Source of the DNA: Lolliginicoccus suaedae
GTDB taxonomy: Bacteria; Actinomycetota; Actinomycetes; Mycobacteriales; Mycobacteriaceae
Length of the DNA: 64,000 bases
Assembly (NCBI RefSeq): GCF_008312885.1
Contig: NZ_VSSO01000001.1
Coordinates: forward strand, 992,001-1,056,000
Reading direction: 5' to 3'
Shown: positions 4,708-38,466 of the stretch, piece by piece
Layout of the letters: each line of letters starts with the position of its first letter
Position numbering within the stretch: the stretch's first letter is position 1
Notes under the pieces: generated by a model
Databases searched by the model: none
What the model was told of the DNA's origin: nothing
Seen by the model: only the letters and a program-made list of their open reading frames with translations
Made by a program: the position numbers and the translations under genes

Positions 4708-6305
4708 GGTGTGGCACCTTCCACGTTCGTGCTGGATGCTGCCCGGGCCTGCTCCTGCTGGGCGCGCTCGCGAGCGACGTCGGTGATCGCGCCGAGGCCG
4801 TTGAGCCGCGGGTTCGACAGTAGCCGGGATCGAATGGCGAGGCTCAGCATGGGATAGGTGAACAGGAACACCACGAAAAGGTCGAGCACAGTGGTGAGGC
4901 CGAGCGCGAACGCGAAGCCCTTCACCTGTCCCACCGCGAGCAGGTAGAGGATCGCGGCGGCGAGGAAGCTGACGGCATTGCCGGTCATGATCGTCCGCCG
5001 GGCCCGTTGCCAGCCTCGCTCGACCGCGCTGCGGAAGCTGCGGCCCTCGCGCATCTCATCCTTGATGCGCTCGAAGTAGACGATGAACGAGTCGGCCGTC
5101 ATGCCAATGCCGATGATGAAACCGGCGATGGCCGCGAGATCGAGGGTGAAGTTGACGTACCGGCCCAGGAGCACGAGCACTCCGTAGACCAGTCCGACGG
5201 CGATGGCGAGGGACAGTCCGGCGATGACGCCGAGCAACCGGTAGTACGCGAGAGCGTAGAGGAGGACCGCGAGCAGCCCGATCGCGCCGGCGATCAGCCC
5301 GGCCTCGAGCGAGGCGAGCCCGAGGGTGGCCGAGACCGTTTGGGCCTGCGATGCCTCGAAGGACAGGGGCAGGGCGCCGTAGCGCAACTGGTTGGCGAGG
5401 TCGCGGACCTCTTCCTCGGTGAAGTTGCCGGAGATGGAGGTGGCGCTGCCCGCTGGCGTGGCATCGCGGATCACCGGTGCGCTCACGACGGCGGTATCGA
5501 GCACGAACGCGGCCTGCTGGCCGATGCTCTGGCGAGTGAAGGCGGCCCAGTCGTCGCTGGCCTGTCCCTGGAAGCGGAACGACACTTCCCACCGCGCCTG
5601 CTGCTGGTTGAAGCCGCCACTCACGCTGCCGCTGTCGATCTCCTCGCCCTCGATGAGGACGGGACCGAGCAGGTAGACGACCTGGCCGTCACTGCCGCAG
5701 GTGACCAGGGGCTTGTCGGGCAGGTCGTTGCCAGCGAGCGGGTCGAGCGGGCTGCACTCGTGCTCGGCCAGCGTCGTTGCCTGCGTCTCGGGGTCCTCGG
5801 ACTGCCGGGCGGCGCGGGCCTCCTCGATCAGCGCGGCAGCCTCGTCCGCGTCTCCGGGCAGAGTTGGCCGGGGCTCCTCCTCGGTGCCAATGCCCTCCTC
5901 CGGGGTGCTCTCCGCGGCATTGGGAGCGGGTTGCGCGTTGAGCACCGGACGGACATACATCCGCGCGGTCTGCCCGAGCGTGCGCGCCTGGGCACCATCC
6001 TGGCCCGGCACCGTGATGACAAGGGTCTCGCCATCGATGAGCACCTCGGAGCCGGCGACGCCGAGGCCGTTGATGCGGGTGGCGATGATCTCCTGCGCCT
6101 GCTCGAGAGCGTCAGGGCTAGGGCTCGATCCGTCCGGGGTGATCGCGGACAGCACGACCCGCGTACCACCCTGCAGGTCGACGCCGAGGCGCGGCGTCGT
6201 GCCGCGGTCCCCGGTGAACAGGACGAGAGTGAAGCACAGGGCGACGAGGATGAGCACGGCGCTGAGTGCCCGCAGCGGATGCTTCCGCCGACTGGTTGAT
6301 GCCAC
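4704..6305 (-). CDS. secD: Protein translocase subunit SecD
   Basis: Partner of SecF in the export-assisting membrane complex. The protein has about 533 residues, with an N-terminal helix, the GVDLQGGTRVVL motif, a long extracytoplasmic region and a six-helix RND-type block with GFIIGIGMTADSFIVYFER. An acidic, low-complexity insertion (PEEGIGTEEEPRPT and after) lies in the first extracytoplasmic domain. The GTG at 6305 is chosen because aaggagat precedes it by about nine bases; an upstream ATG at 6347 lacks such a site. It lies downstream of yajC and overlaps secF. Confidence 0.95.
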   Translation of the reverse strand: MASTSRRKHPLRALSAVLILVALCFTLVLFTGDRGTTPRLGVDLQGGTRVVLSAITPDGSSPSPDALEQAQEIIATRINGLGVAGSEVLIDGETLVITVPGQDGAQARTLGQTARMYVRPVLNAQPAPNAAESTPEEGIGTEEEPRPTLPGDADEAAALIEEARAARQSEDPETQATTLAEHECSPLDPLAGNDLPDKPLVTCGSDGQVVYLLGPVLIEGEEIDSGSVSGGFNQQQARWEVSFRFQGQASDDWAAFTRQSIGQQAAFVLDTAVVSAPVIRDATPAGSATSISGNFTEEEVRDLANQLRYGALPLSFEASQAQTVSATLGLASLEAGLIAGAIGLLAVLLYALAYYRLLGVIAGLSLAIAVGLVYGVLVLLGRYVNFTLDLAAIAGFIIGIGMTADSFIVYFERIKDEMREGRSFRSAVERGWQRARRTIMTGNAVSFLAAAILYLLAVGQVKGFAFALGLTTVLDLFVVFLFTYPMLSLAIRSRLLSNPRLNGLGAITDVARERAQQEQARAASSTNVEGATP

Positions 6306-6358
6306 GAGACGATCTCCTTGACGACAACTGGCGCGACCGCCAGTCACGAGGGCTGACT

Positions 6359-6691
6359 CTACTGGACTCCGCTGTCGCGGCCGTACGCATCCGTGCCGCC
6401 ACCATCGCGGTCGTCGAGCTCGCCGTCCTCCTCGATGTCGTCGCGGACCACGTCACGGATCGCGAGGCGCATCCAGGTGGCAACGACTCCGGGGGCGATC
6501 TCGAGCTCCACGGTGGTGTCCTCGACGGCCCTGATGGTGCCGTACAGGCCGGAGGTGGTCATGATGCGATCGCCGACGGAGAGCGAGTCCTGCAATGCTG
6601 CTTGGCGATCCATCTCCTTCTTCTGGCGGCGCACCGAGAGGAACATCGGTACGAGCAGGAGCAGGATGAGCAGGGGCAGGAGCAGTTCCAT
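6359..6691 (-). CDS. yajC: Preprotein translocase subunit YajC
   Basis: Small single-pass membrane protein associated with SecDF. The 110-residue product has a Leu-rich helix at residues 2-18, the conserved RRQKKEMD stretch, and the core GDRIMTTSGLYGTI. An acidic tail rich in Asp and Gly follows, longer than in the E. coli protein. A gaggaa ribosome site lies upstream of the ATG. First gene of the yajC-secD-secF unit. Confidence 0.95.
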   Translation of the reverse strand: MELLLPLLILLLLVPMFLSVRRQKKEMDRQAALQDSLSVGDRIMTTSGLYGTIRAVEDTTVELEIAPGVVATWMRLAIRDVVRDDIEEDGELDDRDGGGTDAYGRDSGVQ

Positions 6692-6837
6692 CGGGGCGTG
6701 ATTCCTCGTTGTTCGATGTGCGCGTGTGGGGCGGGCCGGTCACAGAATGCCGACCGGTACACCAGTGTGCCATCCCTGGCGCGGGTTGCCGAGTTGCCCG
6801 CGCCGCCGGGGCCCGCCCAGCAGGCGCAGCGGGCCGT

Positions 6838-7905
6838 CTAGAACGTGTATTCGTCGTCCTGGGGCTCGCGCGCGCGGACCGCGATGCCGCTCGCCACGGT
6901 ATCCGCGGGCGGCACGAGACCCAGGTGCTCCCAGGCCGCGGCGGTGGCGATGCGACCGCGTGGCGTGCGCGCCAGCATGCCTGCTCGCACCAGGTAGGGC
7001 TCGCAGACCTCCTCCACCGTCGCTGGCTCCTCGCCCACCGCGACCGCGAGGGTGGCGGCGCCCACGGGGCCACCGTTGAAGCTCCGCACGAGCGACTGCA
7101 GCACCGCCCGGTCGAGACGGTCGAGCCCGAGCTCGTCGACGTCGTATACGCGAAGGGCGGCGCTGGCGATGTCCATGGTCACCACGCCGTCGGAACGGAC
7201 CTCGGCGTAGTCGCGCACCCGGCGCAGCAGGCGGTTCGCGATGCGTGGCGTGCCGCGGGACCGCCGCGCGATCTCGTGGCTCGCATCGTTCCGGAGCTCC
7301 ACGCCCAGGATGCGAGCGGAGCGCATGAGGATGCGCTGCAGCTCAGCGGGCTCGTAGAAGTCCATGTGCGCGGTGAAACCGAACCGGTCACGCAGCGGAC
7401 CAGTGAGCGCGCCCGAGCGTGTCGTGGCACCGACCAGGGTGAAGGGCGAGACCTCGAGCGGGATGGAGGTGGCGCCGGGGCCCTTGCCCACGACGACATC
7501 TACGCGGAAGTCCTCCATCGCGAGGTACAGCATCTCCTCCGCGGGACGGGAGATGCGGTGGATCTCGTCGATGAACAGGACATCGCCCTCGACGAGGTTG
7601 CTGAGCATCGCGGCGAGGTCGCCAGCCCGTTCCAGCGCAGGGCCGGAGGTCAGGCGCAGCGCTGTGCCCATCTCGGCAGCGATGATCATCGCGAGGCTGG
7701 TCTTGCCGAGGCCGGGCGGGCCGGAGAGCAGGATGTGATCGGGTGCCGCGCCGCGCTGCTTGGCGCCGGAGAGGACGAGCTCGAGCTGCTCCCGCACGCG
7801 CGGCTGGCCGATGAAGTCGAAGAGGTTCTTGGGGCGCAGGCTGCCCTCGAGGTCACCGTCGCCATCGACGAGGCTCGGCGACATGGACTGCTCCTGGTTG
7901 GTCAT
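6838..7905 (-). CDS. ruvB: Holliday junction branch-migration helicase RuvB
   Basis: AAA+ motor that drives branch migration of Holliday junctions with RuvA. The 355-residue protein has Walker [11 protein letters not shown], Walker B LFIDEIHR, sensor region [18 protein letters not shown] and a C-terminal winged-helix domain ([16 protein letters not shown]). The start overlaps the ruvA stop by four bases. Last gene of the ruvC-ruvA-ruvB operon, so probably part of the DNA-damage response governed by the LexA box upstream of ruvC. Confidence 0.97.
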
Positions 7906-8513
7906 CGCGGGCCACCCAGGCTGGCGAGCGCGGAGCGCAGCAATACCGAGGATGTGGCAGCGGGCTCGAGCTCGAGCGCGCCGGCCGTGGCCTGCTCGGC
8001 CTGCGCGGCAGTGAAGCCCAGCCCGGTGAGCGCTTCGATCACGGTGTCGGCGACCGTGGCTGCCGGTGCGCTCCCATTGGTCGCTCCCCCAGCATCCCCG
8101 GTCATCCCGTCGGCCGCGCTCACCTTGTCCCGCAGGTCCACGATGAGGCGATCGGCGACACGCTTGCCCACCCCGGGTACCCGCATCAGTGCCTTGGTGT
8201 CGCCATTGGCCAGCGCGAGGCGCAGCGCGTTCGGCTCGAGCACCGCGAGCACCGCCATGGCGAGCCGGGGGCCCACGCCCGTCACGGTCTGCAGGAGGGC
8301 AAAAAGCTCGCGCGACTCATCGCTGGAGAATCCGTAGAGCGTCATGGAATCCTCCCGCACCACCATCGTGGTGAGCAGGAGAGCCTCGTTCCCCCGATGC
8401 AATCCCGCGAGGGTGCCTGGCGTGGCATGGATCTTGTAGCCCACTCCCGCGGCCTCGACCACGGCATGATCGAGACCGATGTGCAGTACTGGTCCGCGTA
8501 CCGCTGCGATCAT
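7902..8513 (-). CDS. ruvA: Holliday junction-binding protein RuvA
   Basis: Tetrameric junction-recognition subunit of RuvAB. The 203-residue protein has the N-terminal OB-fold ([13 protein letters not shown]), two helix-hairpin-helix motifs ([17 protein letters not shown] and [17 protein letters not shown]), a flexible Gly/Ala linker and a C-terminal RuvB-binding domain ([15 protein letters not shown]). Four-base overlaps join it to ruvC and ruvB. Confidence 0.96.
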
Positions 8514-21341: not shown

Positions 21342-21416
21342 GCGCGATTAGCTCAGTGGGAGAGCGCTTCCCTGACACGGAAGAGGTCACTGGTTCAATC
21401 CCAGTATCGCGCACCA
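21342..21416 (+). tRNA. tRNA-Val (GAC), integration target
   Basis: Acceptor gcgcgat/atcgcgc, anticodon loop CTGACAC (anticodon GAC), T-loop TTCAATC, and an encoded CCA at 21414-21416. Its last 23 bases are duplicated at 28441-28463, the far end of the inserted element, so the element supplies the present 3' end of the gene. The Gly-Cys-Val order matches the tRNA cluster beside phiRv2 in M. tuberculosis (from memory). Confidence 0.96.
21394..21416. repeat. attL core
   Basis: ttcaatcccagtatcgcgca followed by cca, the T-arm/acceptor end of tRNA-Val, identical to 28441-28463. Similarity continues past the core into a hairpin terminator on both sides. Confidence 0.92.
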
Positions 21417-21418
21417 CT

Positions 21419-21445
21419 AAACCCCCTGGTAACAGGGGGTTTTTT
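21419..21445 (+). terminator. Rho-independent terminator after tRNA-Val, element-borne copy
   Basis: Stem aaaccccctg/cagggggttt with loop gtaa, then a T-run. The same stem with loop ttcg occurs beyond attR at 28467. Because this copy lies inside the element, the element restores both the tRNA end and its terminator on integration. Confidence 0.9.
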
Positions 21446-21463
21446 ACTTTCCACACACAGCGC

Positions 21464-21482
21464 GTGCCCAACGCGTGCCCAA
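21464..21482 (+). promoter_or_regulatory. Arm-type integrase sites near attL
   Basis: Two direct copies of GTGCCCAA (21464 and 21475), 11 bases apart. The same octamer recurs near attR, as expected for the arm-binding domain of a tyrosine integrase. Confidence 0.65.
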
Positions 21483-21546
21483 TGCGGCAGCGGGCGATCC
21501 CCCAAAAACAGCCCACCACGGGCGCTAGTTGTGACCGAGCCGTGAC

Positions 21547-22227
21547 CTAGCGGGGTGCCTCCGCAGCGAGCCATGCCGCGATCTCCGGCAATGTGCCGCT
21601 AGGCCCGACCCACACACGCGTCCTGCCACGCAGCACCGCAGGGAACCGCGACGCCCACGCCGCATCCGTCGCCGCCAGCTCGAACACACCCACAGTCGGG
21701 TCCGACCACTCCCCCGGTTCACCACCAGCAGCACGCACAGCATCCTCCGCAGCGTGGACGTGGTGCCGCAGATCATCGAGGGGGCACCGCCGTGTGGTCG
21801 GTGTGGTGTCGATGCGCGCCAGGTCCAGGCCCACCGCCGCAGCCACAGCAGTGACCCGCGCTAGCTCCGCATCGAGCCGCCCACGGGCTGTATCCACCGC
21901 AGCAGCAAGACGCGGCACCGCGTTGGCCTTGTCCACCTCGGCGCGCTCACGAGCCGCCAGCGTGGTTTTCCACGACTCGCGCCGCCCCAGCACCACCGCC
22001 ACCCTGGCGAGGGCCTTATCGACCTCACCGGCCACAGCCAGCACATCCGCGATCACCGCCTGCTTGGCGTTCGGCGGTACCTCGGGATCAGCGAGGAACG
22101 CGTGTAGCTCACGGTCGAAGTCCTCGGGGGTGGCTGCGCGTAGCTCAGCGGCCAGGCTGAACGTTGCCAGGTCCACGCGGGGCATGTATCCGGCGCGACG
22201 CCGCGCCAGCTCATCGGACAGGCTCAT
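21547..22227 (-). CDS. Element protein of unknown function
   Basis: Predicted 226-residue soluble protein that I do not recognise. The first two thirds are strongly helical and rich in Ala, Arg and Glu (residues about 60-140 could form a coiled coil). The last 50 residues look folded (FPAVLRGRTRVWVGPSGTLP). The ATG at 22227 is chosen because it overlaps the stop of the zinc-ribbon gene by four bases (ATGA); a longer frame to 22440 lacks such support. Last gene of the leftward chain before attL. Confidence 0.65.
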   Translation of the reverse strand: MSLSDELARRRAGYMPRVDLATFSLAAELRAATPEDFDRELHAFLADPEVPPNAKQAVIADVLAVAGEVDKALARVAVVLGRRESWKTTLAARERAEVDKANAVPRLAAAVDTARGRLDAELARVTAVAAAVGLDLARIDTTPTTRRCPLDDLRHHVHAAEDAVRAAGGEPGEWSDPTVGVFELAATDAAWASRFPAVLRGRTRVWVGPSGTLPEIAAWLAAEAPR

Positions 22228-22376
22228 GGGCGGACACGATCCCGCAAACCAATGACGCGGTTCACGCAGCGGCGGCACCGCCAAAGATGCTGTGTCCCTT
22301 TGTAATTCATGGATGGCCCCCGGCAGTCGGGGCAGACATGAGGCGGCGACGGGGTGGCCTGCGGCGACGGCTTCAC
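22224..22376 (-). CDS. 50-residue zinc-ribbon protein
   Basis: Short gene with two Cys pairs, HVCPDC and RCRRC, separated by about 15 residues, a classic zinc-ribbon layout. The GTG start overlaps the previous stop (GTGA) and its own stop overlaps the next start (ATGA), both four-base junctions, which supports a real gene despite its size. Possible roles are nucleic-acid binding or protein contact within the element's replication apparatus (inference). Confidence 0.65.
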   Translation of the reverse strand: MKPSPQATPSPPHVCPDCRGPSMNYKGTQHLWRCRRCVNRVIGLRDRVRP

Positions 22377-22702
22377 TGGTCACCGTCCATGCCGTCCAGG
22401 CAGAGCTGTAGCCGCGACGTGGGCTCATAGAAGGTTCCACGGGTGTTCACGCGCCGCCACACAGTCTGGTAGCTGCCGTGTAGGTGGGGTTTGGTGGTGC
22501 GCCTGGCACCGAGAGCCACGAGCATCCCCTCGGCGTGGAGCTGACGGAACGCCAGCCCTAGGCGGCGGGGCTCGCAGAAGCGGATGGCCCCCATTTTGAG
22601 CATCACCGCATCGGCGTGGACCTCACGACCCACGGGCCACCGCTCAATGATCGAGAACGCCACCGCTAGGGCCTGCTCGTCGTCGCACTCGTGGCCGGTC
22701 AT
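22373..22702 (-). CDS. Small element protein, possibly winged-helix
   Basis: A 109-residue protein without a family I recognise. The pattern of residues 10-60 (ALAVAFSIIERWPVGREVHA, then RRLGLAFRQLHAEGMLVALG) looks like a winged-helix fold, and the C-terminal part is basic. It overlaps the genes on both sides by four bases, so it is translated in a coupled chain. A DNA-binding role is inference. Confidence 0.6.
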   Translation of the reverse strand: MTGHECDDEQALAVAFSIIERWPVGREVHADAVMLKMGAIRFCEPRRLGLAFRQLHAEGMLVALGARRTTKPHLHGSYQTVWRRVNTRGTFYEPTSRLQLCLDGMDGDQ

Positions 22703-22902
22703 GCGTCACCGCCCGCGAGTAGGACGGTGGCGAGGTCGTCGCGCTGGGCGGGGGTGAGCACCGCAGCGTTGGCGTGGATGGCGGCGCGTAGCCGCTCAGC
22801 GGCCATACCGGCACGAGCTGCCGTGAGCGCGGGGTCATCGGCGGGGCGGGAGCGCGTGAGGGCGGCGTAGCGGGCGCAGGCGATGCCCAGGTTGCTGGTC
22901 AT
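22699..22902 (-). CDS. Small element protein of unknown function
   Basis: A 67-residue helical, Ala/Arg-rich product (MTSNLGIACARYAALTRS onward). The ATG at 22902 is preferred; its stop overlaps the next start as ATGA. No motif is recognised. Confidence 0.55.
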   Translation of the reverse strand: MTSNLGIACARYAALTRSRPADDPALTAARAGMAAERLRAAIHANAAVLTPAQRDDLATVLLAGGDA

Positions 22903-22955
22903 GCGATGACCGTAGGCAGCGGGGGCGCACCGCAGCGGAGCCACTGGGCAGGGGT

Positions 22956-23546
22956 CTAGGTGGTGGCCGGGGTGCTCTCCGCGAGGTAGCGGTACAGGGT
23001 GGCCCGCGAGATACCCAGCGTCTCGCAGATAGCGCGGGCAGTCTCGCCGCGATCCTTCAGCGCACGGGCCTGCCGCGCCTGGTCCTCGGTGAGGGCGCGC
23101 TTTCGCCCCACGCTCCCCCCACGCGCCTTCAGCGCATCCCTCGCGGCCTGGGACCGCTCCACGATCAGGTCACGCTCTAGTTGGGCCATCACGGCGAACA
23201 TCCCGGCGGCGGCGCGCCCTGCCGGTGTCGTCATGTCGAAGCCCTCGCGCAGGGAAACGAGGCTCACGCCCTGCTCGGTCAGCTCCTCTAGTGTCCGCAG
23301 GATGCCGGATAGGGTGCGGCCCAGCCGGTCGAGCGCCACGATCACGAGGGTGTCGCCGGGGCGTAGATGGCGGCGCAGCTCGGCCAGCCCTGGGCGGTCG
23401 GTCTTGGTTCCGCTGATCACGTCGCGGTAGATGTGCTCCTCATCGACCCCGGCGGCGCGTAGCGCGTCGATTTGCTGGGCGAGGGTCTGGCGGGACGTGG
23501 ATACGCGGGCGTAGCCGTAGCGGCGGGCGGTGGTGGTGTCGCTCAT
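22956..23546 (-). CDS. Small serine recombinase (resolvase/invertase family)
   Basis: Site-specific recombinase of 196 residues, the size of Hin, Gin or Tn3 resolvases. The catalytic Ser is in YGYARVSTSRQT (residue 16), with ALDRLGRTLSGIL and the E-helix region AVMAQLERDLIVERSQAAR. The C-terminal HTH is ICETLGISRATLYRYL. It is complete and probably active. An element that already has a tyrosine integrase does not need it for integration, so multimer resolution or DNA inversion is more likely (inference). A repeat-rich region lies just upstream. Confidence 0.92.
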   Translation of the reverse strand: MSDTTTARRYGYARVSTSRQTLAQQIDALRAAGVDEEHIYRDVISGTKTDRPGLAELRRHLRPGDTLVIVALDRLGRTLSGILRTLEELTEQGVSLVSLREGFDMTTPAGRAAAGMFAVMAQLERDLIVERSQAARDALKARGGSVGRKRALTEDQARQARALKDRGETARAICETLGISRATLYRYLAESTPATT

Positions 23547-23581
23547 GGGGGGTGTCCTTCTCGTCGTGGTCGCACCCCGAG

Positions 23582-23718
23582 GGTCTCACAATCTATCTCA
23601 ATGACGCAATGTGAGACACGTAGTATCGAGACACACTAACGAGACATGCGGTCCAGGGGAAACACCCCCCGCGAAGCCCAGCAGCCGGGGTGTCTCACTA
23701 CGAACACATCGAGACACC
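23582..23718. promoter_or_regulatory. Candidate resolution/operator region of the serine recombinase
   Basis: This region, just upstream of the recombinase start, has GAGACAC-type motifs in both orientations: gtgagacacg (23611), tcgagacaca (23626), acgagacatg (23639), gtgtctcact (23690) and tcgagacacc (23709), plus tctcaca at 23584. Serine resolvases often bind such a cluster both to recombine and to repress their own gene. The assignment rests on position and repetition only. Confidence 0.45.
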
Positions 23719-23724
23719 CCCGAA

Positions 23725-23877
23725 TCACTCCGCGATGGCACGCGCCATCACGCGCAGCGCATAAGCGGCCCGCGATCCGTCGCGCAGCGCCCCCACCGTC
23801 TCGGCGCACCCCAGCAGCACCGCCGCGACCTCCGCGCGCTCCTCGGGCTCCAACTCGATAAGCGGTGCCACGCTCAC
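23725..23877 (-). CDS. 50-residue element protein of unknown function
   Basis: Tiny gene, acidic then Ala/Arg-rich (IELEPEERAEVAAVLLGCAE near the start). Its GTG overlaps the stop of the upstream gene as GTGA, the only real support. No family recognised. Confidence 0.5.
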   Translation of the reverse strand: MSVAPLIELEPEERAEVAAVLLGCAETVGALRDGSRAAYALRVMARAIAE

Positions 23878-24101
23878 CGGTCGGCCACCACCACAGCGAA
23901 CGCCGTGAACATGCCATGCAGCAGCGTCACCGCATCACCGGTCACCCCGTCGTTCTCTGCCTCATCGAGGACGTCCAGTAGCTCATCAGCGGCACGAGCG
24001 GCCTCATCGAGCCGCTGGGAATCCGTCAGCCCCGCGAAGTTCGCGCGCAGCTCCGCGAGCTTTTCGCTAGTCCAGGTATCCGCGATAAAAGAGTCGTCCA
24101 T
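23874..24101 (-). CDS. Small acidic element protein
   Basis: A 75-residue acidic, helical protein (MDDSFIADTWTSEKLAELRA; then AADELLDVLDEAENDG). A gagga-type ribosome site lies upstream of the ATG. It is the first gene left of the repeat-rich dyad and overlaps the next gene. Function unknown; acidic small proteins of phages and satellites are often inhibitors, but nothing here shows that. Confidence 0.55.
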   Translation of the reverse strand: MDDSFIADTWTSEKLAELRANFAGLTDSQRLDEAARAADELLDVLDEAENDGVTGDAVTLLHGMFTAFAVVVADR

Positions 24102-24580
24102 AGTTGCCTGTCCTCGCTGGGGTGGTGATTCACAAAAAGAAGCGCTGGTGCCGATAAACCCGTGTTTTTCGTTTCGCTAGTGCGGGTGGCGGGCCACCCC
24201 CGATGGGTGTGTCAGGCGCGGGGGTGGCCTGCCGTAATGGACGCTAGCGGGGGCCAGCGAACACGGGGCGGACCCTAGCCAGGGCGCGTGGCCCAGGGCA
24301 CCTCAGCGAGCCGGTTGATGCAAAAGATCGAAACGTTCCACTCTGGGAACTGTCCAGAGTGTCCAACTGTCCGTAAATGCCCGCGTGACCTGGTATTTTG
24401 GTGGTTTTGTCGAAGTGTCCGCGAAGTGTCCGCGAAGTGTCCAGCGCGGCGTTCTGGACAGTTGCTGGACACTTTGCGGACAGTTGCCGGATCGCATCGT
24501 TTCCGCAGGTAGATACACCTTTTTCGGACACTTGGACACTCTGGACAGTTCCCAGAGTGAACAGGGTTGAAAAAAGCCGA
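24102..24580. other. Gene-free replication-origin-like region
   Basis: No gene is supported. The right half is the twelve-repeat dyad described separately (24339-24559). The left part (24102-24338) shows nothing further that I can name. Confidence 0.6.
24339..24559. repeat. Twelve-iteron dyad, candidate origin
   Basis: Six TGTCC motifs (starting 24351, 24360, 24368, 24416, 24427, 24438) are followed by six GGACA motifs (24456, 24467, 24478, 24526, 24534, 24543). Every motif mirrors its partner about one centre at 24449. The inner triplets are spaced exactly 11 bp, one helical turn. The outer blocks (24339-24373 and 24525-24559) are inverted repeats matching at 34 of 35 bases. The asymmetric bases in between include a T-rich stretch (tattttggtggttttgt). 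The primase-helicase gene ends 22 bases away. Origin function is inference. Confidence 0.8.
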
Positions 24581-26413
24581 TCAGAGCCACCGCTCGAACG
24601 CGTCCAGGAAGTCGGAGCGGTGGTAGCCACGCTCCGTCCGAGCATCGTTCTGGCGAGGCTTGACGCCGAACTCGCCAAGCCTGCGGGCCAGCCCGTGAGC
24701 CGACAGGTAGTGCTCGCCGCTGAGGTCGGACCACGCCGAATCCGGGAGCGCCACTAGCTCAGAAACAAGCACAGTCGATTTCAGGAACGAAACTCCGTAG
24801 TGGTTCTCCCACACCGCCCTTATGTCCCTCAGCAACTCCTCCTGAGTGCCGCCACTGTCCGTCCGCCCGTTGGCGGCTTGCGCGGCCTGACGGGCACGTC
24901 GGCCCCAATCAGGGTGCGCGGCATCAGCGACCGCGATGAGCGGCTCCCACGTATCGGCAACACGATCCTCCACCCCCATATCGGCAGGTTCCGCGCCTTC
25001 CACCTTTGCCCGGTTCTGCTCAGCCCATGCGGCCAGCTCCTCGCGCAGCTCAACGAGCGGGGGAAGGTCGCGGCGCAACCGGAACGGCTTCACGGCCTCG
25101 TTCTTCTTGCGGCGCTTCACGGTGATGATCACGGCCCGGTCTTCGATGGTGTCAGGGAGCCGCCCGATGCCAGACAAGGCGCAGAACGCGAACACAGGGA
25201 ACTCCACGACCTGCATCGTGTCCTTGTCCACACGCCGCACAGGTTTTCCCCGCTGGAATCCGGCGTTGAGGATGCCGCGCAGCTCCTCATGCGCGTCGGA
25301 CGCCTTCCGTGTGCCGAAAATGGCATCGGTCTCGTCAAACATCACCGTTGGGGGTTTCTCGGAATCAAGCGAGCGGAACAGCGCGGCGGTGGAGGTGTTC
25401 GCCGTGGGCAGCGGATTCCACGCCATGCCCTCCACCACTTCCAGCAGGCGGGTCTTGCCTGACCGCTTCGTCGCTGACCGGATGATCAGGCGGGGCGCAT
25501 AGTCGAACAGGTCCACGAAATGCGTTGCCGCCGTCCACAGCACAGCCGTGGTGATCGCATCGTCGTCGGGCAGGACGCAGTGCCGCCGAATAGCTTCTTC
25601 GACGCGATTGAGGAGGCCCGCGCCGTCGATGGTGGGCCAATGCCGTGCCCGGCCAACCGGGGTGCGCGCGGGGGGCTCACCGCCCGCTTCGGGTGGCATC
25701 TCGAACCGGACAAGCTGCTTCAGCTCATCAACACCATGTTCTGCCAGGTAATCATCGAGCCCGGTCTTCTCGTCGGTGTCGGGTAGATGCAGATACCGGA
25801 CCGTCGAGCCCTTCGATCCTAGATAGCGGGCAAGCTCCCCCATGGCGCGCCGAACCTCCGGCTTGCGCTGCACATCACCATCGAACGCGATGACCACGGT
25901 CCGGTTCTGCAACGCGAGGTCTGCCCAGTCGGGCACCGCAATTGTGGCATTGACAGCAGGGGCAACCTTGCGTCGCCAATTCCACACTCCGGTCAGCGCG
26001 ATGCAGCACAGGCCCGCACCGACCGCAGCGTCCGCCTTCTTCGCGCCTTCAGTGATGTACAGGTCCACCTTGGGATTGGCGCGGCCCCTCAGCATCTTCG
26101 GGAAGTCGATTTGCGTCGCTTGCCCCTGCGGCGTCTCATACTTGACGAGTTTGCCGTGGCGTTCGCGGGGATGGTCGGGACGGTACTGGTAGCCCCATTG
26201 GGTGCCGTTACAGCGGTGCATGGGTATGTAGAGGCCGGGTGTTCGTGTCCTGGCTGTCTTGGCGAGCTGCGGGTACATTTCCTCTAGCTCGCGGGGGTCG
26301 CGGATGGAGCGGTATCCGCGTGTTTCGATCACATCGTCGGGGATGCCGCTGCTTTTCAGCATGTCGCGGTGCTGAGGCAGCAGGGCACCGCCGCCGCTAA
26401 TTGGTACGCTCAT
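24581..26413 (-). CDS. TOPRIM/DUF3854-DUF3631 primase-helicase
   Basis: Replication protein of 610 residues. The N-terminal half has a TOPRIM-like arrangement: YITEGAKKADAA (Glu near residue 122) and VVIAFDGDV (Asp near 178-180), as in DUF3854 proteins. The C-terminal half is a P-loop helicase-like DUF3631 domain with ATKRSGKT (residues 314-321) and the Walker B MFDETDAIFG. Such proteins occur in actinobacterial plasmids and prophage-like elements including phiRv elements. All motifs are intact. It probably unwinds and primes at the adjacent iteron dyad (inference). Confidence 0.85.
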   Translation of the reverse strand: MSVPISGGGALLPQHRDMLKSSGIPDDVIETRGYRSIRDPRELEEMYPQLAKTARTRTPGLYIPMHRCNGTQWGYQYRPDHPRERHGKLVKYETPQGQATQIDFPKMLRGRANPKVDLYITEGAKKADAAVGAGLCCIALTGVWNWRRKVAPAVNATIAVPDWADLALQNRTVVIAFDGDVQRKPEVRRAMGELARYLGSKGSTVRYLHLPDTDEKTGLDDYLAEHGVDELKQLVRFEMPPEAGGEPPARTPVGRARHWPTIDGAGLLNRVEEAIRRHCVLPDDDAITTAVLWTAATHFVDLFDYAPRLIIRSATKRSGKTRLLEVVEGMAWNPLPTANTSTAALFRSLDSEKPPTVMFDETDAIFGTRKASDAHEELRGILNAGFQRGKPVRRVDKDTMQVVEFPVFAFCALSGIGRLPDTIEDRAVIITVKRRKKNEAVKPFRLRRDLPPLVELREELAAWAEQNRAKVEGAEPADMGVEDRVADTWEPLIAVADAAHPDWGRRARQAAQAANGRTDSGGTQEELLRDIRAVWENHYGVSFLKSTVLVSELVALPDSAWSDLSGEHYLSAHGLARRLGEFGVKPRQNDARTERGYHRSDFLDAFERWL

Positions 26414-26450
26414 TAGGAACTTTCCGGTTAAGGGTGTTCAGACGTGAAAG

Positions 26451-26473
26451 CCCAGAGGCACGCCACCTCTGGG
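26451..26473 (-). terminator. Hairpin between the HTH gene and the primase gene
   Basis: Stem cccagagg/cctctggg with short T-runs on both strands. It lies after the 57-residue HTH gene and before the primase start, so it could end or attenuate leftward transcription. Confidence 0.55.
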
Positions 26474-26481
26474 TTTTCTGC

Positions 26482-26655
26482 TTATTCGGTGGCTCGCGGC
26501 GGCGTGATGTGGTCGAGGGCGTCCTCGGGGATAAGCCGGACCGCCCCTACCTGAATCGAGGGGATCGTGCCCTCAGCGATCCACCGCCTGACCGTCCGTT
26601 CAGTAACCGCGTGCCGGGCGGCGAACTCCTTCGCGCGCAAATGATGTTTTGTCAC
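26482..26655 (-). CDS. 57-residue HTH protein (excisionase/MerR-like)
   Basis: Small DNA-binding protein with the pattern LRAKEFAARHAVTERTVRRW then IAEGTIPSIQVGAVRLIPED, typical of HTH_17/Xis-like domains: helix-turn-helix, then a wing carrying an arginine. GTG start; no strong ribosome site. A second protein of the same type is encoded just upstream, so one may be the excisionase and the other a regulator of the primase gene. Confidence 0.75.
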   Translation of the reverse strand: MTKHHLRAKEFAARHAVTERTVRRWIAEGTIPSIQVGAVRLIPEDALDHITPPRATE

Positions 26656-26705
26656 GCGGTGAAATGTAGTGACAGGGGGTGCAACGCGGCGTTTCCGCTG
26701 CTCAC

Positions 26706-26894
26706 TTACGAATCCGCGCCATTCGGCACGGCGCGGATCAACGCCAGCACGTCCTGCTCATCCACGTAGATCAGGCTCTTGCCGACACGATAGGCCTTCA
26801 GCTCGCCCTCAGCGATGAAGCGGCGCAGTGTCTTCGGTGACAGCCCCACCAGTTCCGCCGCAGCCCGCAGCCGCAACAGGTTCTTCTTCCGCAT
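26706..26894 (-). CDS. HTH excisionase-like protein
   Basis: A 62-residue protein beginning MRKKNLLRLRAAAELVGLSP, followed by KTLRRFIAEGELKAYRVGKS and LIYVDEQDVLALI, a textbook HTH_17/excisionase domain. The ATG at 26894 has aggag nine bases upstream; an ATG three codons earlier is too close to it. It lies just downstream of the integrase gene, the common place for xis. Confidence 0.85.
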   Translation of the reverse strand: MRKKNLLRLRAAAELVGLSPKTLRRFIAEGELKAYRVGKSLIYVDEQDVLALIRAVPNGADS

Positions 26895-26923
26895 TGCGTG
26901 CATCTCCTTTGTTTTGTGGCACG

Positions 26924-26967
26924 AAAAAAGCCCACCCCTACGCCGGTTTGCGCCGGTAGGGGCGGGC
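26924..26967 (-). terminator. Rho-independent terminator after the integrase gene
   Basis: Read leftward: a GC stem (GCCCGCCCCTACCGG pairing with CCGG..TAGGGGTGGGC, small bulge) followed by a TTTTTT run. It isolates integrase transcription from the replication genes. Confidence 0.85.
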
Positions 26968-27011
26968 ATCTCCCGCTGCTCATTCCGTGTCCCTGGCCCC
27001 CAATGGGAACC

Positions 27012-27047
27012 ATTGGGCAGGAATGTACACCGATTGGGCAGGAATGT
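27012..27047. repeat. Direct repeat between xis-like gene and integrase stop
   Basis: ATTGGGCAGGAATGT occurs at 27012 and 27033, period 21 bp (two helical turns). Its TTGGGCA part resembles the inverse of the arm-type octamer. Confidence 0.6.
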
Positions 27048-28253
27048 CTAAACAGCTTTAATAACTGTATGGATTCTAATTGCCTCCGCCCACACCTCAT
27101 CCATACGACGCGCCAGCTCCCCCATCCGCTCCGGGTCCGTGTGCTGATAGTGATGCGAGATCGTCGCCGCACTATGCCCCGACCTGATCTCGTTCTCACG
27201 CGGCGTCGCACCGCAGCGCGCGAACAAGCTGATTCCCGCGTGCCGCAAATGATGAAACGTGAGTTCGTCGTGCCCTGCCTCGCTGCGGGCCTTAGCCCAG
27301 TGGCGCTGGAAAGCCGACCACGACAAATGCTGCGCAGGGTCACGGACCGACGACACCACGAGCGCATCCCGCCCCGTACCCGTGTGCGCGTCGAGGTGAT
27401 CCCGCAATGCCACCATCGCCGTGGGCGGCAGGAACACCGTCCGGCGCCCCGCCAGCGTCTTGGTCTGCCGCTCATGCACCTCGCCCCTGGTGCGGGACAC
27501 CCCACGACGAACATGCAGCGCACCATCACGGAAACTGATGTCCTTGCGGCGTAGTGCCACGACCTCACCGAACCGCAGCGCCCCGAACAGCCCCAGCACC
27601 GGCGCGATCTGCCACTGCTCAGGCAGCACAGGCACCAGGGCGTTGAACACGTCCTTCTGAAGCCACAGCGGTTGCTCCACGAAATGCTCATCGGCGGGCT
27701 GTAGGCGCTGTGGGCGCGCAGCACCACGAATGCGGCACGGCGATTTCACGATCTTGTCCTCATCCTCGGCGGCACGCATGATCGAGGACAGCAGCCCGTA
27801 GACGTGGGCGCGCTGCGTACCACCGGTGGCGTCCTTACGGCGTCCCTGGAACTGCATGCCTGCGTAGAAGTTCCGCACAGCGTCTGGGGTTATGTCCGCG
27901 AGGGGCATAGGACCGAACGCGGGCAGCAGGAACCGGTCCAGGTAGCGCTGGTAGCCCTCTAGGGTTCGTGGTGCCAGGCCAGTCGCCCGCTTCACGTCCA
28001 GGAACTGGCTCGCGTACTCACAGAAAGTGACCTTCTTCGCGGCCTTCTTCCTCGCCACCACTGACGGGGGTTCCCACAGCCCGTCGCGTATCTCGCGGTA
28101 CCGCTCCGCTAGCCACGCCTGCGCGTCCTCACGCGTCGCGAACGTCTGCGGGGCTTTATGGCGGCTGAGGTCCGGGCCGGTGTAGCGGGCCTGCCACCGC
28201 CCTGATTTCAGTTGCCGCGTGTTGCCGAACAGGCGCTTGGTCTCGTGTGCCAC
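27048..28253 (-). CDS. int: Tyrosine integrase
   Basis: Phage-type integrase of 401 residues. An N-terminal arm-binding domain (GNTRQLKSGRWQARYTGPDL) is followed by a SAM-like core-binding domain and a catalytic domain with GALRFGEVVALRRKD (Arg), the HxxR box FHHLRHAGISLFARCG, and the nucleophile Tyr in HSAATISHHYQHTD. I use the GTG at 28253 because ggggag precedes it and the family N-terminus begins there; the frame stays open far upstream over the arm sites and attR. It lies beside attR. Confidence 0.93.
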   Translation of the reverse strand: MAHETKRLFGNTRQLKSGRWQARYTGPDLSRHKAPQTFATREDAQAWLAERYREIRDGLWEPPSVVARKKAAKKVTFCEYASQFLDVKRATGLAPRTLEGYQRYLDRFLLPAFGPMPLADITPDAVRNFYAGMQFQGRRKDATGGTQRAHVYGLLSSIMRAAEDEDKIVKSPCRIRGAARPQRLQPADEHFVEQPLWLQKDVFNALVPVLPEQWQIAPVLGLFGALRFGEVVALRRKDISFRDGALHVRRGVSRTRGEVHERQTKTLAGRRTVFLPPTAMVALRDHLDAHTGTGRDALVVSSVRDPAQHLSWSAFQRHWAKARSEAGHDELTFHHLRHAGISLFARCGATPRENEIRSGHSAATISHHYQHTDPERMGELARRMDEVWAEAIRIHTVIKAV

Positions 28254-28268
28254 TGGTGCTCTCCCCGT

Positions 28269-28349
28269 GTGCCCAATCCGTGCCCAATCGGAAGGTTTTG
28301 TGCCCAATCTCTGCCACATCTTCGGGCATCTTTGGGCATCGTTGGGCAC
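28269..28349. promoter_or_regulatory. Arm-type integrase sites near attR
   Basis: GTGCCCAA occurs directly at 28269, 28280 and 28300 and inverted at 28342; weaker TTGGGCAT and TCGGGCAT copies lie between. The first pair is 11 bases apart, as near attL. The sites cover the integrase promoter region, so integrase may regulate itself. Confidence 0.65.
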
Positions 28350-28440
28350 GGTTGTCTGTAATCGTTTCCGCTGGTCCAGGGCGTAGAGTAGCCGGAATAC
28401 CCTGCTAGGGGCCAATCCGTGGAGAGTCACCAAACACAGC

Positions 28441-28463
28441 TTCAATCCCAGTATCGCGCACCA
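28441..28463. repeat. attR core
   Basis: Exact copy of the last 23 bases of tRNA-Val(GAC). It is a 3' fragment, not a functional tRNA. Confidence 0.92.
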
Positions 28464-28498: not shown

Positions 28499-28654
28499 CG
28501 CCGCGCGCTTCGTGCAACTCATGCGCGCTCCATGCGGCCCCCCGATACTGCGGCCCCAGCGGGCCCACGCCGGGATGGACCCCAGCAAGCGCCGCGATGA
28601 GCTCAGCACGATTGCGCTTCCCCGACATGGACCAAGTCACTGCCTCGATCGCAG

Positions 28655-28660
28655 TATGGT
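28655..28660 (+). promoter_or_regulatory. Candidate -10 element for leaderless GNAT gene
   Basis: TATGGT ends seven bases before the ATG at 28668; there is no ribosome site. This favours that ATG over the one at 28656. Confidence 0.5.
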
Positions 28661-28667
28661 GCACCCT

Positions 28668-35429: not shown

Positions 35430-36941
35430 TTGCTATCCAGCACCGCTCCAGCCACGCACACCACCCGCACGCTGATCATCGGCACGGGATTCTCCGGCAT
35501 GGGCATGGCCATCCAGCTCCTGCGCTCCGGCAAGTCCGACTTCCTCATCATCGACAAGGCCGATGACTTCGGCGGCACCTGGCGCGACAACACCTACCCC
35601 GGGTGCGCCTGCGACGTGCCCGCGCACATGTATTCGTTCTCGTTCGAGCCCAACGCCCGCTGGAGCAAGCTGTGGGCCGAGCAGCCGGAGATCTTCGACT
35701 ACATGAAATCCGTAGCGGCGAAGCACGATCTGCAGCGCTACACCCACTTCGGCCGCACCTTCACCGGCGCAGAGTGGAACGAGACCACCCAGACCTGGAC
35801 GGCAACGACGGCCGAGGGCGATACCTACGAGGCAGAGTTCCTCGTCTCCGGCGTCGGCGCGCTCCATATTCCCTCCATCCCTCGCTTCACCGGGGACGAC
35901 GAGTTCACGGGCACCTCGTTCCACTCCGCGCGGTGGGATCACAGCGTTGACCTTCGCGGCAAGAAGGTCGCGGTGATCGGCACCGGCGCGAGCGCCATCC
36001 AGTTCATCCCGCAGATCATCGACGAGGTCGCCGAGCTGCACCTCTACCAGCGCACCCCCGCATGGGTACTGCCCCGCACCAATGTGCCGATCCCCTCGCC
36101 CGCCCGAGCAGCGATCGCGCGCGTTCCCGGTCTGCGGCGCGGCATCCGCGGCAGCATCTACAGCATCCAGGAGTCACTGGCGTTCGGGCTCAACGGCAAC
36201 TCGAACGTCATGAAGCCGCTCGAATCATTGGGCAAGTGGAACGTCACGCGGTCCATCAAGGATCCCGCGCTTCGCGAGAAGCTGACGCCGGACTACCGCA
36301 TCGGCTGCAAGCGCATCCTCGGCTCCTCGACCTACTACCCGGCCCTCGCCCGTGAGCACACCACGGTGGTCACCGAGGGCATCGAGCGCTTCACCCCCAA
36401 CGGCATCATCGGCGCGGACGGTGTCGAGCGCGAGGTCGACGTGATCATCTACGGCACCGGCTTCCACGTCACCGACTCGATGGACAACGTCGATATCGTC
36501 GGGCGCAACGGCGTGAACCTCAGCGAGCAGTGGCGCGACAAGGGCATGGAGACCCACCTCGGCATCACCGTCAACGGGTTCCCCAACGCGTTCTTCCTGC
36601 TCGGCCCCAACACCGGGCTCGGCCACAACTCCGTGGTCTTCATGATCGAGCAGCAGATCGGCTACATCCTCGAGGCCATGCGCATCGCCGACGAGCGCAA
36701 CGCCGCCGTCGAGGTCACTGCTGACGCCCAGCGCGACTTCAACGACGAGATCCAGGCAAAGCTCTCCGCGGGCGTGTGGTCCACGGGTGGCTGCACGAGC
36801 TGGTACCTCGACTCCCAGGGCATGAACCGCACCATCTGGCCCGGCTACACCTTCCAGTACAAGGCCCGCACCAGGACGGTCAATGCGGCGGACTTCGTCC
36901 TGCACAGGAAGAGCGAGGACTCGCTCCCGGCTGCAAGCTGA
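35430..36941 (+). CDS. Flavin-containing Baeyer-Villiger-type monooxygenase
   Basis: FAD/NADPH monooxygenase of about 503 residues. The FAD motif is LIIGTGFSGMGMAIQLL; the Baeyer-Villiger fingerprint is FTGTSFHSARWDH (F-x-G-x-x-x-H-x-x-x-W); the NADPH motif is VAVIGTGASAIQFIPQI. It probably inserts oxygen next to a ketone; substrate unknown. Start TTG at 35430 chosen for the gaaggga site before it and because the FAD motif follows closely; longer frames exist. A strong terminator follows. Accessory relative to the mycobacterial order. Confidence 0.9.
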   Translation: MLSSTAPATHTTRTLIIGTGFSGMGMAIQLLRSGKSDFLIIDKADDFGGTWRDNTYPGCACDVPAHMYSFSFEPNARWSKLWAEQPEIFDYMKSVAAKHDLQRYTHFGRTFTGAEWNETTQTWTATTAEGDTYEAEFLVSGVGALHIPSIPRFTGDDEFTGTSFHSARWDHSVDLRGKKVAVIGTGASAIQFIPQIIDEVAELHLYQRTPAWVLPRTNVPIPSPARAAIARVPGLRRGIRGSIYSIQESLAFGLNGNSNVMKPLESLGKWNVTRSIKDPALREKLTPDYRIGCKRILGSSTYYPALAREHTTVVTEGIERFTPNGIIGADGVEREVDVIIYGTGFHVTDSMDNVDIVGRNGVNLSEQWRDKGMETHLGITVNGFPNAFFLLGPNTGLGHNSVVFMIEQQIGYILEAMRIADERNAAVEVTADAQRDFNDEIQAKLSAGVWSTGGCTSWYLDSQGMNRTIWPGYTFQYKARTRTVNAADFVLHRKSEDSLPAAS

Positions 36942-36945
36942 GCAC

Positions 36946-36992
36946 CGCGACTGCGGGGGGTGGCCCGGCCTGCGGCCACCCCCGCAGTCGCG
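36946..36992 (+). terminator. Terminator after the monooxygenase gene
   Basis: Near-perfect 19-bp stem (cgcgactgcggggg..tggcc with ggccacccccgcagtcgcg, one bulged G), 8-base loop, then a T-rich tail (ttcgtctcgtcttggt). Confidence 0.85.
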
Positions 36993-37137
36993 TTCGTCTC
37001 GTCTTGGTCTCGTTCTGCTCAGCAAAACACCGGCAACCGCAGTGAATGGTGTGATGCACGAAGGACCGCGGGCAGGCACCGGGCACTCCCGTCGCGCCAC
37101 ATCGCACGCCCGGATCACGTGCAGGAGAACAGGGGCC

Positions 37138-38466
37138 ATGATCGTCACGATCGCCATCACCACAGCACCCACGCTCATCCGGGCACCACGGCCCCGCGCG
37201 CCTCGGAACCGGTTGCCGCGGGCGGGCACACTGCTGCTCGCCCTCACCGCTGCCCTCGCCGCGGGGCTGCCCGCCACAGCCGCCGCCGACACGGTCACCG
37301 CCACCATCCCCGTCGGCGACGGCCCGACCGGGGTGGCCATCACCCCCGACGGCACCCTCGCCTACACCGCCAACTTCAACGAGGACTCGGTGTCGGTGAT
37401 CGACACGGGCACCAACACGGTCGCCGCCACGGTTCTCGTCGGCGACGCCCCGCGCGGGGTCGCAGTTGCCCCGGACGGCTCCTTCGCCTACACCGCCAAC
37501 GAACTCAGCGACTCGGTGTCAGTGATCGACACCGCCACCAACACCTCCGCGACCAATATCCCCGTCGGCGACGGCCCGATCGGGGTGGCCATCACCCCCG
37601 ACGGCACCCGCGCCTACGTCACCAATTTCAACGACGACACGGTGTCGGTGATCGACACGGGCACCAACACCGTCACCGCCATCCCCGTCGGCGACGCCCC
37701 GCGCGGGGTGGCCATCACTCCCGACGGCGCGTTCGCCTACATCACCAACCAAAACAGCGACTCGGTGTCAGTGATCGACACGGGCACCAACGCGGTCGCC
37801 GCCACGGTTCCCGTCGGCGACGCCCCGCGCGGGGTCGCCATTGCCCCGGACGGCACCTTCGCCTACGTCACCAACTTCAGCGACGACTCGGTGTCGGTGA
37901 TCGACACCGCCACCAACACCGTCACCGCCACCATCGGAGTCGGCGGCCTCCCGATCGGGGTGGCCATCACCCCCGACGGCACCCGCGCCTACACCGCCAA
38001 CAACAACGACGACACGGTGTCGGTGATCGACACCGCCACCAACACCGTCACCGCCTCCATCGGAGTCGGCGACCTCCCGTCCGGGGTGGCGGTCAACCCG
38101 GACGGCGTCCGCGCCTACGTCACCAACTCCGGCGGTGACACGGTCTCGGTGATCGCCATCGACCAGGCCCCCACCCTGGTCGGCACGCCCCCCGCCGGCA
38201 CGGTCGGGCAGCCGTACACTTTCGCGTTCACCACCACCGGCCCGCCGACGCCGACGGTCAGCACCGGCGACCCGCTGCCGGCCGGGCTGGCCCTGGGCCC
38301 CGACGGCACCCTCTCGGGCACCCCCACCGAGGCCGGGACGTTCCCCATCACCGTCACCGCGTCAAACGGCGTCGCCCCCGACGCCACCACCGACGTGGTG
38401 ATCGAGATCGCCCCGAAGCCCTGCACAGGCTTGATCTGCCTGCCCGCCGGATCCTCCGGCAGCTAG
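37138..38466 (+). CDS. Secreted seven-blade YVTN beta-propeller with Ig-like domain
   Basis: Exported protein of 442 residues. A signal peptide (LLLALTAALAAGLPATAAA) is followed by seven repeats of about 41-42 residues, each with PVGDxPxGVAITPDGTxAY and DSVSVIDTGTNTV, matching YVTN/NHL-type propellers; seven GVAxxPDG units close one propeller. A He_PIG-type Ig domain follows (LVGTPPAGTVGQPYTFAF, then GLALGPDGTLSGTPTEAGTF). The end is CTGLICLPAGSSGS, with no sortase motif or membrane anchor. The ATG has aggag ten bases upstream. The repeats are nearly identical in DNA. A surface ligand-binding role is likely. Confidence 0.9.
   Translation: MIVTIAITTAPTLIRAPRPRAPRNRLPRAGTLLLALTAALAAGLPATAAADTVTATIPVGDGPTGVAITPDGTLAYTANFNEDSVSVIDTGTNTVAATVLVGDAPRGVAVAPDGSFAYTANELSDSVSVIDTATNTSATNIPVGDGPIGVAITPDGTRAYVTNFNDDTVSVIDTGTNTVTAIPVGDAPRGVAITPDGAFAYITNQNSDSVSVIDTGTNAVAATVPVGDAPRGVAIAPDGTFAYVTNFSDDSVSVIDTATNTVTATIGVGGLPIGVAITPDGTRAYTANNNDDTVSVIDTATNTVTASIGVGDLPSGVAVNPDGVRAYVTNSGGDTVSVIAIDQAPTLVGTPPAGTVGQPYTFAFTTTGPPTPTVSTGDPLPAGLALGPDGTLSGTPTEAGTFPITVTASNGVAPDATTDVVIEIAPKPCTGLICLPAGSSGS

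Follow-up and report, generated by a model that had tools for sequence, protein, structure and literature searches.

The stretch of DNA considered here (the window, 64,000 nucleotides of a Lolliginicoccus suaedae contig) contains a mobile element integrated in a tRNA-Val gene, and directly beside the primase-helicase gene of this element lies a mirrored array of twelve short motifs (iterons). We regard this array, or dyad, as the replication origin of the element, read by the neighbouring helicase-type initiator, with a probability of about 0.86. The analysis itself contributes three lines of evidence, i.e., the layout of the array, its recurrence beside genes of the same family (DUF3631, also called RepAM), and the co-variation in relatives of one initiator residue with one iteron base. 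A need for the array in replication, its binding by the initiator and bidirectional copying are expected by analogy with the look-alike Streptomyces plasmid pWTY27, which has an unrelated initiator, as described in the parts of PMC3583192 consulted.

The mirrored array and its recurrence beside DUF3631 genes

The array consists of six TGTCC motifs on the + strand and six - strand copies (GGACA), with the following parts:

24339..24559, no strand: mirror-symmetric iteron dyad, proposed replication origin, centre 24449
24339..24373, + strand: left outer block, three TGTCC (starts 24351, 24360, 24368)
24410..24448, + strand: left inner block, three TGTCC (starts 24416, 24427, 24438)
24450..24488, - strand: right inner block, three GGACA (24456, 24467, 24478)
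24525..24559, - strand: right outer block, three GGACA (24526, 24534, 24543), 34/35 identical to the inverted left outer block
24386..24392, + strand: TGACCTG, copy of the family box (see below), direction opposite to the family's
24506..24512, - strand: CAGGTAG, located exactly opposite the box across the centre, 5/7 box bases kept
24394..24408, + strand: T-rich part of the left spacer

All sites within one half share one direction, and every motif has a partner across 24449, the start of the motif and the end of its partner always summing to 48898. An earlier note on this DNA had described this mirroring, the spacings of 9 and 8 in the outer triplets and 11 and 11 in the inner ones, and outer 35-base blocks that are inverted copies with one base different, and the motif positions confirm all of it. 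The inner 39-base blocks match at 28/39 when inverted and the 36-base spacers at 13/36. The T-rich stretch that the note had seen inside the array is the one in the left spacer; TTTTT lies in the right spacer at 24520-24524, and the centre is G+C-rich, the T-runs being located in the spacers, where they are possible melting sites. Over the whole window TGTCC is no more frequent than expected (116 against 133.5), and the eight densest 221-bp clusters of the motif all start within the array. When bases in mirrored runs of 5 or more, at most 130 bp from a centre, are counted, the array centre scores 61, against 29 for the runner-up in the 64 kb. The array occurs at one place only in its genome. 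The primase-helicase open reading frame (ORF), which ends at 24581 on the - strand, adjoins it as the note had said, though at a distance of 21 rather than 22 bases.

Relatives of the primase-helicase were detected with profile A1; scans of genome contigs and viral contigs with a single protein detected none. They are found in 29/301 genomes of the taxonomic family and 47/397 of the order, the window's own counted, and within the genus in one of four genomes, i.e., its own; the best 80 of at least 461 relatives in named genomes and 80 of 87 in a viral set were taken along. As many arrays overlap the coding tail, the 400 bp following the end of the conserved DUF3631 domain were searched, rather than the region after the stop codon. 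Of 137 loci 118 were used (4 had no [KRN]G[YF] anchor and 15 were too short, contained N or were near-duplicates), and of 81 in the viral set 68 (6 duplicates and 7 short or with N left out). A mirror dyad exceeding all 60 dinucleotide shuffles was found in 91 of the 118 de-duplicated loci, compared with 0/118 for a stretch inside the gene and 2/115 for a stretch further downstream; in the viral set it was found in 26/68, with 0/66 and 1/65 in the controls. Repeat count alone exceeded all 300 shuffles in 56/118 loci and in 16/68 of the viral set, and never in the controls. By the same shuffling the array of the window has z = 26, the fourth highest value. The mirrored dyad is a trait of the DUF3631 family, if not of every member, and the mirrored arrays that the earlier note had proposed to seek beside relatives of the gene do exist, with motifs that differ between elements (for example CGTCCC, CGTACC, GGTAAC, CGCTAC, CGTCA, or CGAAAC). 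In L006, which belongs to another genus and is 48% identical, the corresponding place carries eleven matches to TGTCC/GGACA, with exact mirroring of the outer triplets and near mirroring of the inner.

Layout was analysed in the 83 of 118 loci with z above 5. In the common plans neighbouring sites are spaced by 9 bp in the outer groups and by 18 bp in the inner ones, with mirror symmetry around the centre. The 11-bp phasing, from which the earlier note argued that the motifs face one side of the helix, is therefore present in the inner triplets of the window but is not the family rule, as outer sites are mostly 9 bp and inner ones often 18 bp apart. A further element of the plan is the box TGACC(T/A)G, which occurs at most 100 bp from the centre in 80/91 array loci, at 10.8 times its density elsewhere, with 112 of 127 copies in mirrored orientation; the window has one copy and a 5/7 copy at the exact mirror position, pointing opposite to the family's. 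A link of the box with a Prim-Pol gene had p = 0.50 in genomes and p = 0.0005 when pooled with the viral set (tblastn, few queries). The AT excess across the family is at most about 7% per bin.

Some loci deserve separate mention. In L011, L018, L035, L055 and others the array overlaps the coding tail and is read there as low-complexity repeats. L007 and L063, from Rhodococcoides fascians, have an in-frame stop in the DUF3631 gene, and L007 is without a mirror dyad. In L141, Pseudomonas phage Phipami28, a DUF3631-like gene is followed by six CGCGAC, four in one direction and two in the other; the mirrored design may reach beyond Actinobacteria. The circular plasmids L139 and L140 have their minima of detrended GC skew at distances of 763 and 317 bp from the arrays, which is too weak to be used as evidence.

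Recognition of the iterons and the proposed initiation mechanism

The strongest evidence for the DUF3631 protein as the reader of the iterons is residue-base co-variation, studied in 53 of the 83 loci, those with a CGT[C/A]C-type motif, over 349 alignment columns. The column of window residue 588 holds T in 18/19 CGTAC loci and N in 30/34 CGTCC loci and carries 0.82 bits; with the labels permuted 200 times, the maximum over all 349 columns reached 0.50. Of the 17 columns that co-vary best, 13 belong to the C-terminal part. A tree of the helicase part has 12 of the 13 iteron base changes on branches where residue 588 also changes, leaving one base change and one residue change unmatched. L095 and L101, a pair that differs in the rule, are 93% identical in this part. 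With a second counting rule T is found in 20/21 and N in 37/40 loci, 5 loci being mixed; of the remaining three C-loci, L066 genuinely breaks the rule, L092 is aligned with N, and one is truncated. Eight of nine clear-motif loci outside the first set agree with the rule and one is unreadable. The window's own pair (TGTCC, Q) falls outside the rule. Whole-domain Mantel tests over the 83 loci did not place recognition in the C-terminal domain. Because one C-terminal residue tracks one iteron base, it is very probable that the DUF3631 (RepAM) protein reads the iterons.

The modelled structure of the primase-helicase has a mean predicted local distance difference test score (pLDDT) of 72.3, and from residue 261 on 31/35 ten-residue blocks reach 80 or more. 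In the model the residue-588 column lies in a short strand of the C-terminal domain, the element order of which looks like that of a winged helix. Foldseek itself ranked BrxL and the African swine fever virus (ASFV) PrimPol first, with low TM-scores, and gave lower matches to PriRep1 with dsDNA, RuvB, MCM8/9 and viral helicases; PriRep1 we take to be a protein of Staphylococcus aureus pathogenicity islands (SaPIs). When the top 1000 matches were realigned with VIA-align, MCM chains came out best and filled the list, the MCM entries listed having about 10-14% identity. A sequence-profile search against solved structures yielded only four weak AAA+ matches (best E 0.13), and SGKT and DE motifs are conserved. 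It is safe to regard the modelled core as that of an AAA+ helicase, and a likeness to MCM is likely.

The reading that we favour is that initiation proceeds as follows. The DUF3631 (RepAM) protein would bind each iteron through its C-terminal, winged-helix-like domain, and the two mirror-image sets of sites would seat two initiator assemblies in opposite orientation, so that perhaps two opposed helicases are loaded by the two halves. These AAA+ helicases would then open the DNA and move apart, and the DUF3854 domain of the element, presumably of TOPRIM type, would prime synthesis after excision. That this copy works and that this protein binds it we infer, as we do the opposed hexamers, the melting site, the priming and the copying after excision.

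Two observations weigh against the array being the origin. In L142, the closest full-length relative, CGTCAC occurs ten times, in a dense array without mirror. The second concerns the genes around the arrays, which could be assessed in 58/118 loci, integrase, tra, xis and Prim-Pol being sought by tblastn with few queries. Among loci with 3.5 kb on both sides the dyad test was passed by 35/40 with a downstream integrase and by only 3/11 with an upstream integrase, which is the arrangement of the window.

The integrated element and alternative roles of the array

The element spans 21417-28463 (7.05 kb) in the tRNA-Val gene and is bounded by a 23-bp exact direct repeat of the tRNA 3' end. Two congeners have the right-hand chromosomal gene immediately after the tRNA, and in a third about 560 bp separate the tRNA from the matched right flank, too short for the element; as these three lack it at the tRNA site, the element is an acquired insertion. 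Its features, and its tRNA target, are:

21342..21416, + strand: tRNA-Val (gac), integration target
21394..21416, + strand: att repeat, tRNA side, 23 bp exact
28441..28463, + strand: att repeat, far side; empty site in congeners
24581..26413, - strand: DUF3854 + DUF3631/RepAM primase-helicase, 610 aa, proposed initiator (PF12307, E 1.9e-44, residues 432-609)
26706..26969, - strand: small HTH_17 protein, excisionase-like
27048..28298, - strand: tyrosine integrase, true start uncertain
22956..23546, - strand: serine recombinase (Resolvase + HTH_7; PHROG DNA invertase)
23874..24101, - strand: ORF of 75 aa following the array, without family
21547-22440, 22373-22702, 22699-22944, - strand: three ORFs without families

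The scan of eight element ORFs, four of which have no family, gave no FtsK/SpoIIIE-type transfer gene and no capsid or large terminase family, and weak terminase-small-subunit matches in element ORFs fall on helix-turn-helix (HTH) parts. The sole match of ORF 21547-22440 among the 301 genomes of the family is its own genome, and it is no guide to the kind of element. A 57-aa ORF (26482-26655, - strand) between the primase and the excisionase-like gene resembles a second small HTH protein. A decayed tRNA-Val copy (28593-28665) adjoins the right flank 130 bp past the att copy and suggests more than one integration event at the site. Outside the element, ORF 36883-38466 contains tandem repeats (VIDTATNTVTATI and similar).

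The most serious alternative, though an unlikely one, is a regulatory or copy-control site, at which initiator or small HTH protein would bind the iterons to control rep, xis-int or copy number while replication starts elsewhere. Initiators often regulate through their own iterons, in loci of the type found in actinomycete integrative and conjugative elements (AICEs) the array has rep on one side and xis/int on the other, and the excess of arrays with a downstream integrase points the same way. In the window, however, xis and int are on the other side of rep and the array is still beside rep, and replication of pWTY27 depends on the same design (PMC3583192). The two roles are not exclusive. 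A rolling-circle double-strand origin, with inverted repeats forming a nick-site hairpin, would agree with the prediction for RepAM and its pC194-like putative nick sites (PMC3218068, in part). It is nevertheless very improbable, as no rolling-circle Rep family was found for the element ORFs in Pfam at E 0.01, the conserved SGKT and DE motifs and multi-site mirrored iterons speak for another mode, and the look-alike pWTY27 is reported to be bidirectional; the rolling-circle prediction for RepAM is disfavoured because the modelled fold is AAA+. We place equally little weight on a cruciform or RNA hairpin whose stem, not the iterons, is recognised, which is the idea of the pWTY27 authors for their own origin. 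The outer blocks are indeed 34/35 complementary and family spacers are 42% complementary against about 25% by chance, but motif positions reach 81%, which speaks for protein sites over a hairpin; moreover the window spacers match at only 13/36, motif copies are also repeated in direct orientation, and a protein residue tracks one motif base.

Two further roles have hardly any probability. The element does encode a serine recombinase, and TGTC-type half-sites occur in Tn3-family res sites, so that a res-like resolution site could be imagined; at none of the 43 array loci flanked by 3.5 kb on either side, however, was a match to this recombinase found (tblastn, few queries), whereas the array stays with the DUF3631 gene. 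A packaging (pac/cos-like) site for a helper phage would fit the surroundings of L142, where prohead protease and capsid genes are present. Against it, no terminase was found in the element ORFs scanned, and arrays frequently occur in AICE-type loci that have tra and belong to elements that are not packaged: a conjugation-type tra match is present in 25 of the 43 array loci and an AICE-like downstream integrase in 35. By the same counts the satellite family proposed in the earlier note covers only some of these loci; L142, in a capsid-encoding contig, has an unmirrored array. The contig of this relative (4536-8308) is viral and 11 kb long, and the array is followed there by HNH, prohead protease and capsid genes. 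The note's reading of the dyad as an initiator-binding origin holds in its core, which recurrence and co-variation support, and as a whole in part; for the packaging and copy-control roles that it had added as possibilities, the analysis yielded no evidence either way.

Comparison with known replicons

The earlier note knew of no described origin with such a layout, yet pWTY27 has one. According to the consulted parts of PMC3583192 this plasmid, thought to be an excised AICE, needs repA, repB and 300 bp beside repA for replication, is bidirectional, and binds RepA beside repA, with footprints at 405-447 and 462-509. In its sequence we find ten motifs, all mirror-paired at offsets of 35.5, 44.5, 85.5, 100.5 and 111.5 from a computed centre at 453.5, so that the published footprints lie on either side, and mirrored CTGACCTGC boxes as well. 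The 149-bp piece reported there as insufficient for replication contains only the four inner motifs, and the authors proposed a stem-loop at the origin. As in the window, the mirrored array is directly 3' of the initiator gene; unlike in the window, the motif is TTCCCAC and a Prim-Pol gene adjoins. The pWTY27 RepA matches no Pfam family at E 1 and compares with DUF3631 at an hhalign probability of 3%, over one Walker A stretch.

Origins of phage-inducible chromosomal islands (PICIs), SaPIs included, lie 3' of rep and have two iteron sets (PMC6092414, PMC7581432, both in part), read by the C-terminal domain of the initiator, apparently as two hexamers (PMC7581432). The window agrees in its six plus six iterons directly 3' (21 bases) of the initiator gene. 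In the passages used the PICI sets flank an AT-rich region, not evident in the window, exact mirror symmetry is not stated, and the protein families differ. Two-set iteron origins 3' of rep are already known, and the mirrored DUF3631 dyad is a variant of them. In the open-licence literature searched, the name DUF3631 occurs in one paper, and such dyads may have been described earlier elsewhere.

RepAM of the AICE pMEA300 shares the Pfam domain PF12307 with the window protein, which differs by its additional DUF3854. PMC3218068 reports autonomous replication for pMEA300 and predicts a rolling-circle mode for the RepAM initiator, without using the word iteron. MCM resembles the modelled window protein in its AAA+ core and a C-terminal domain like a winged helix, and PMC7581432 places Cch of SCCmec near MCM and relates it to SaPIbov1 Rep. 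MCM forms a double hexamer, whereas opposed rings are a proposal for the DUF3631 family and Cch is likened by description.

On balance, though with only a little more than even confidence, mirrored dyads 3' of the initiator may be the usual origin of RepAM/DUF3631 replicons in AICEs and phage-like elements of Actinobacteria, read by an MCM-like helicase through a residue-to-base code in its C-terminal wing and seating two opposed rings. Widespread actinobacterial mobile elements predicted to use rolling-circle replication would thereby gain a testable origin, initiator and recognition rule, and as one initiator residue predicts one origin base in most loci examined, natural pairs can be compared directly. 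If this is true, the published rolling-circle prediction for RepAM would be replaced, the same layout would have been kept, or reached again, by the unrelated pWTY27 initiator, and bacterial mobile elements would offer a parallel to the MCM double hexamer.
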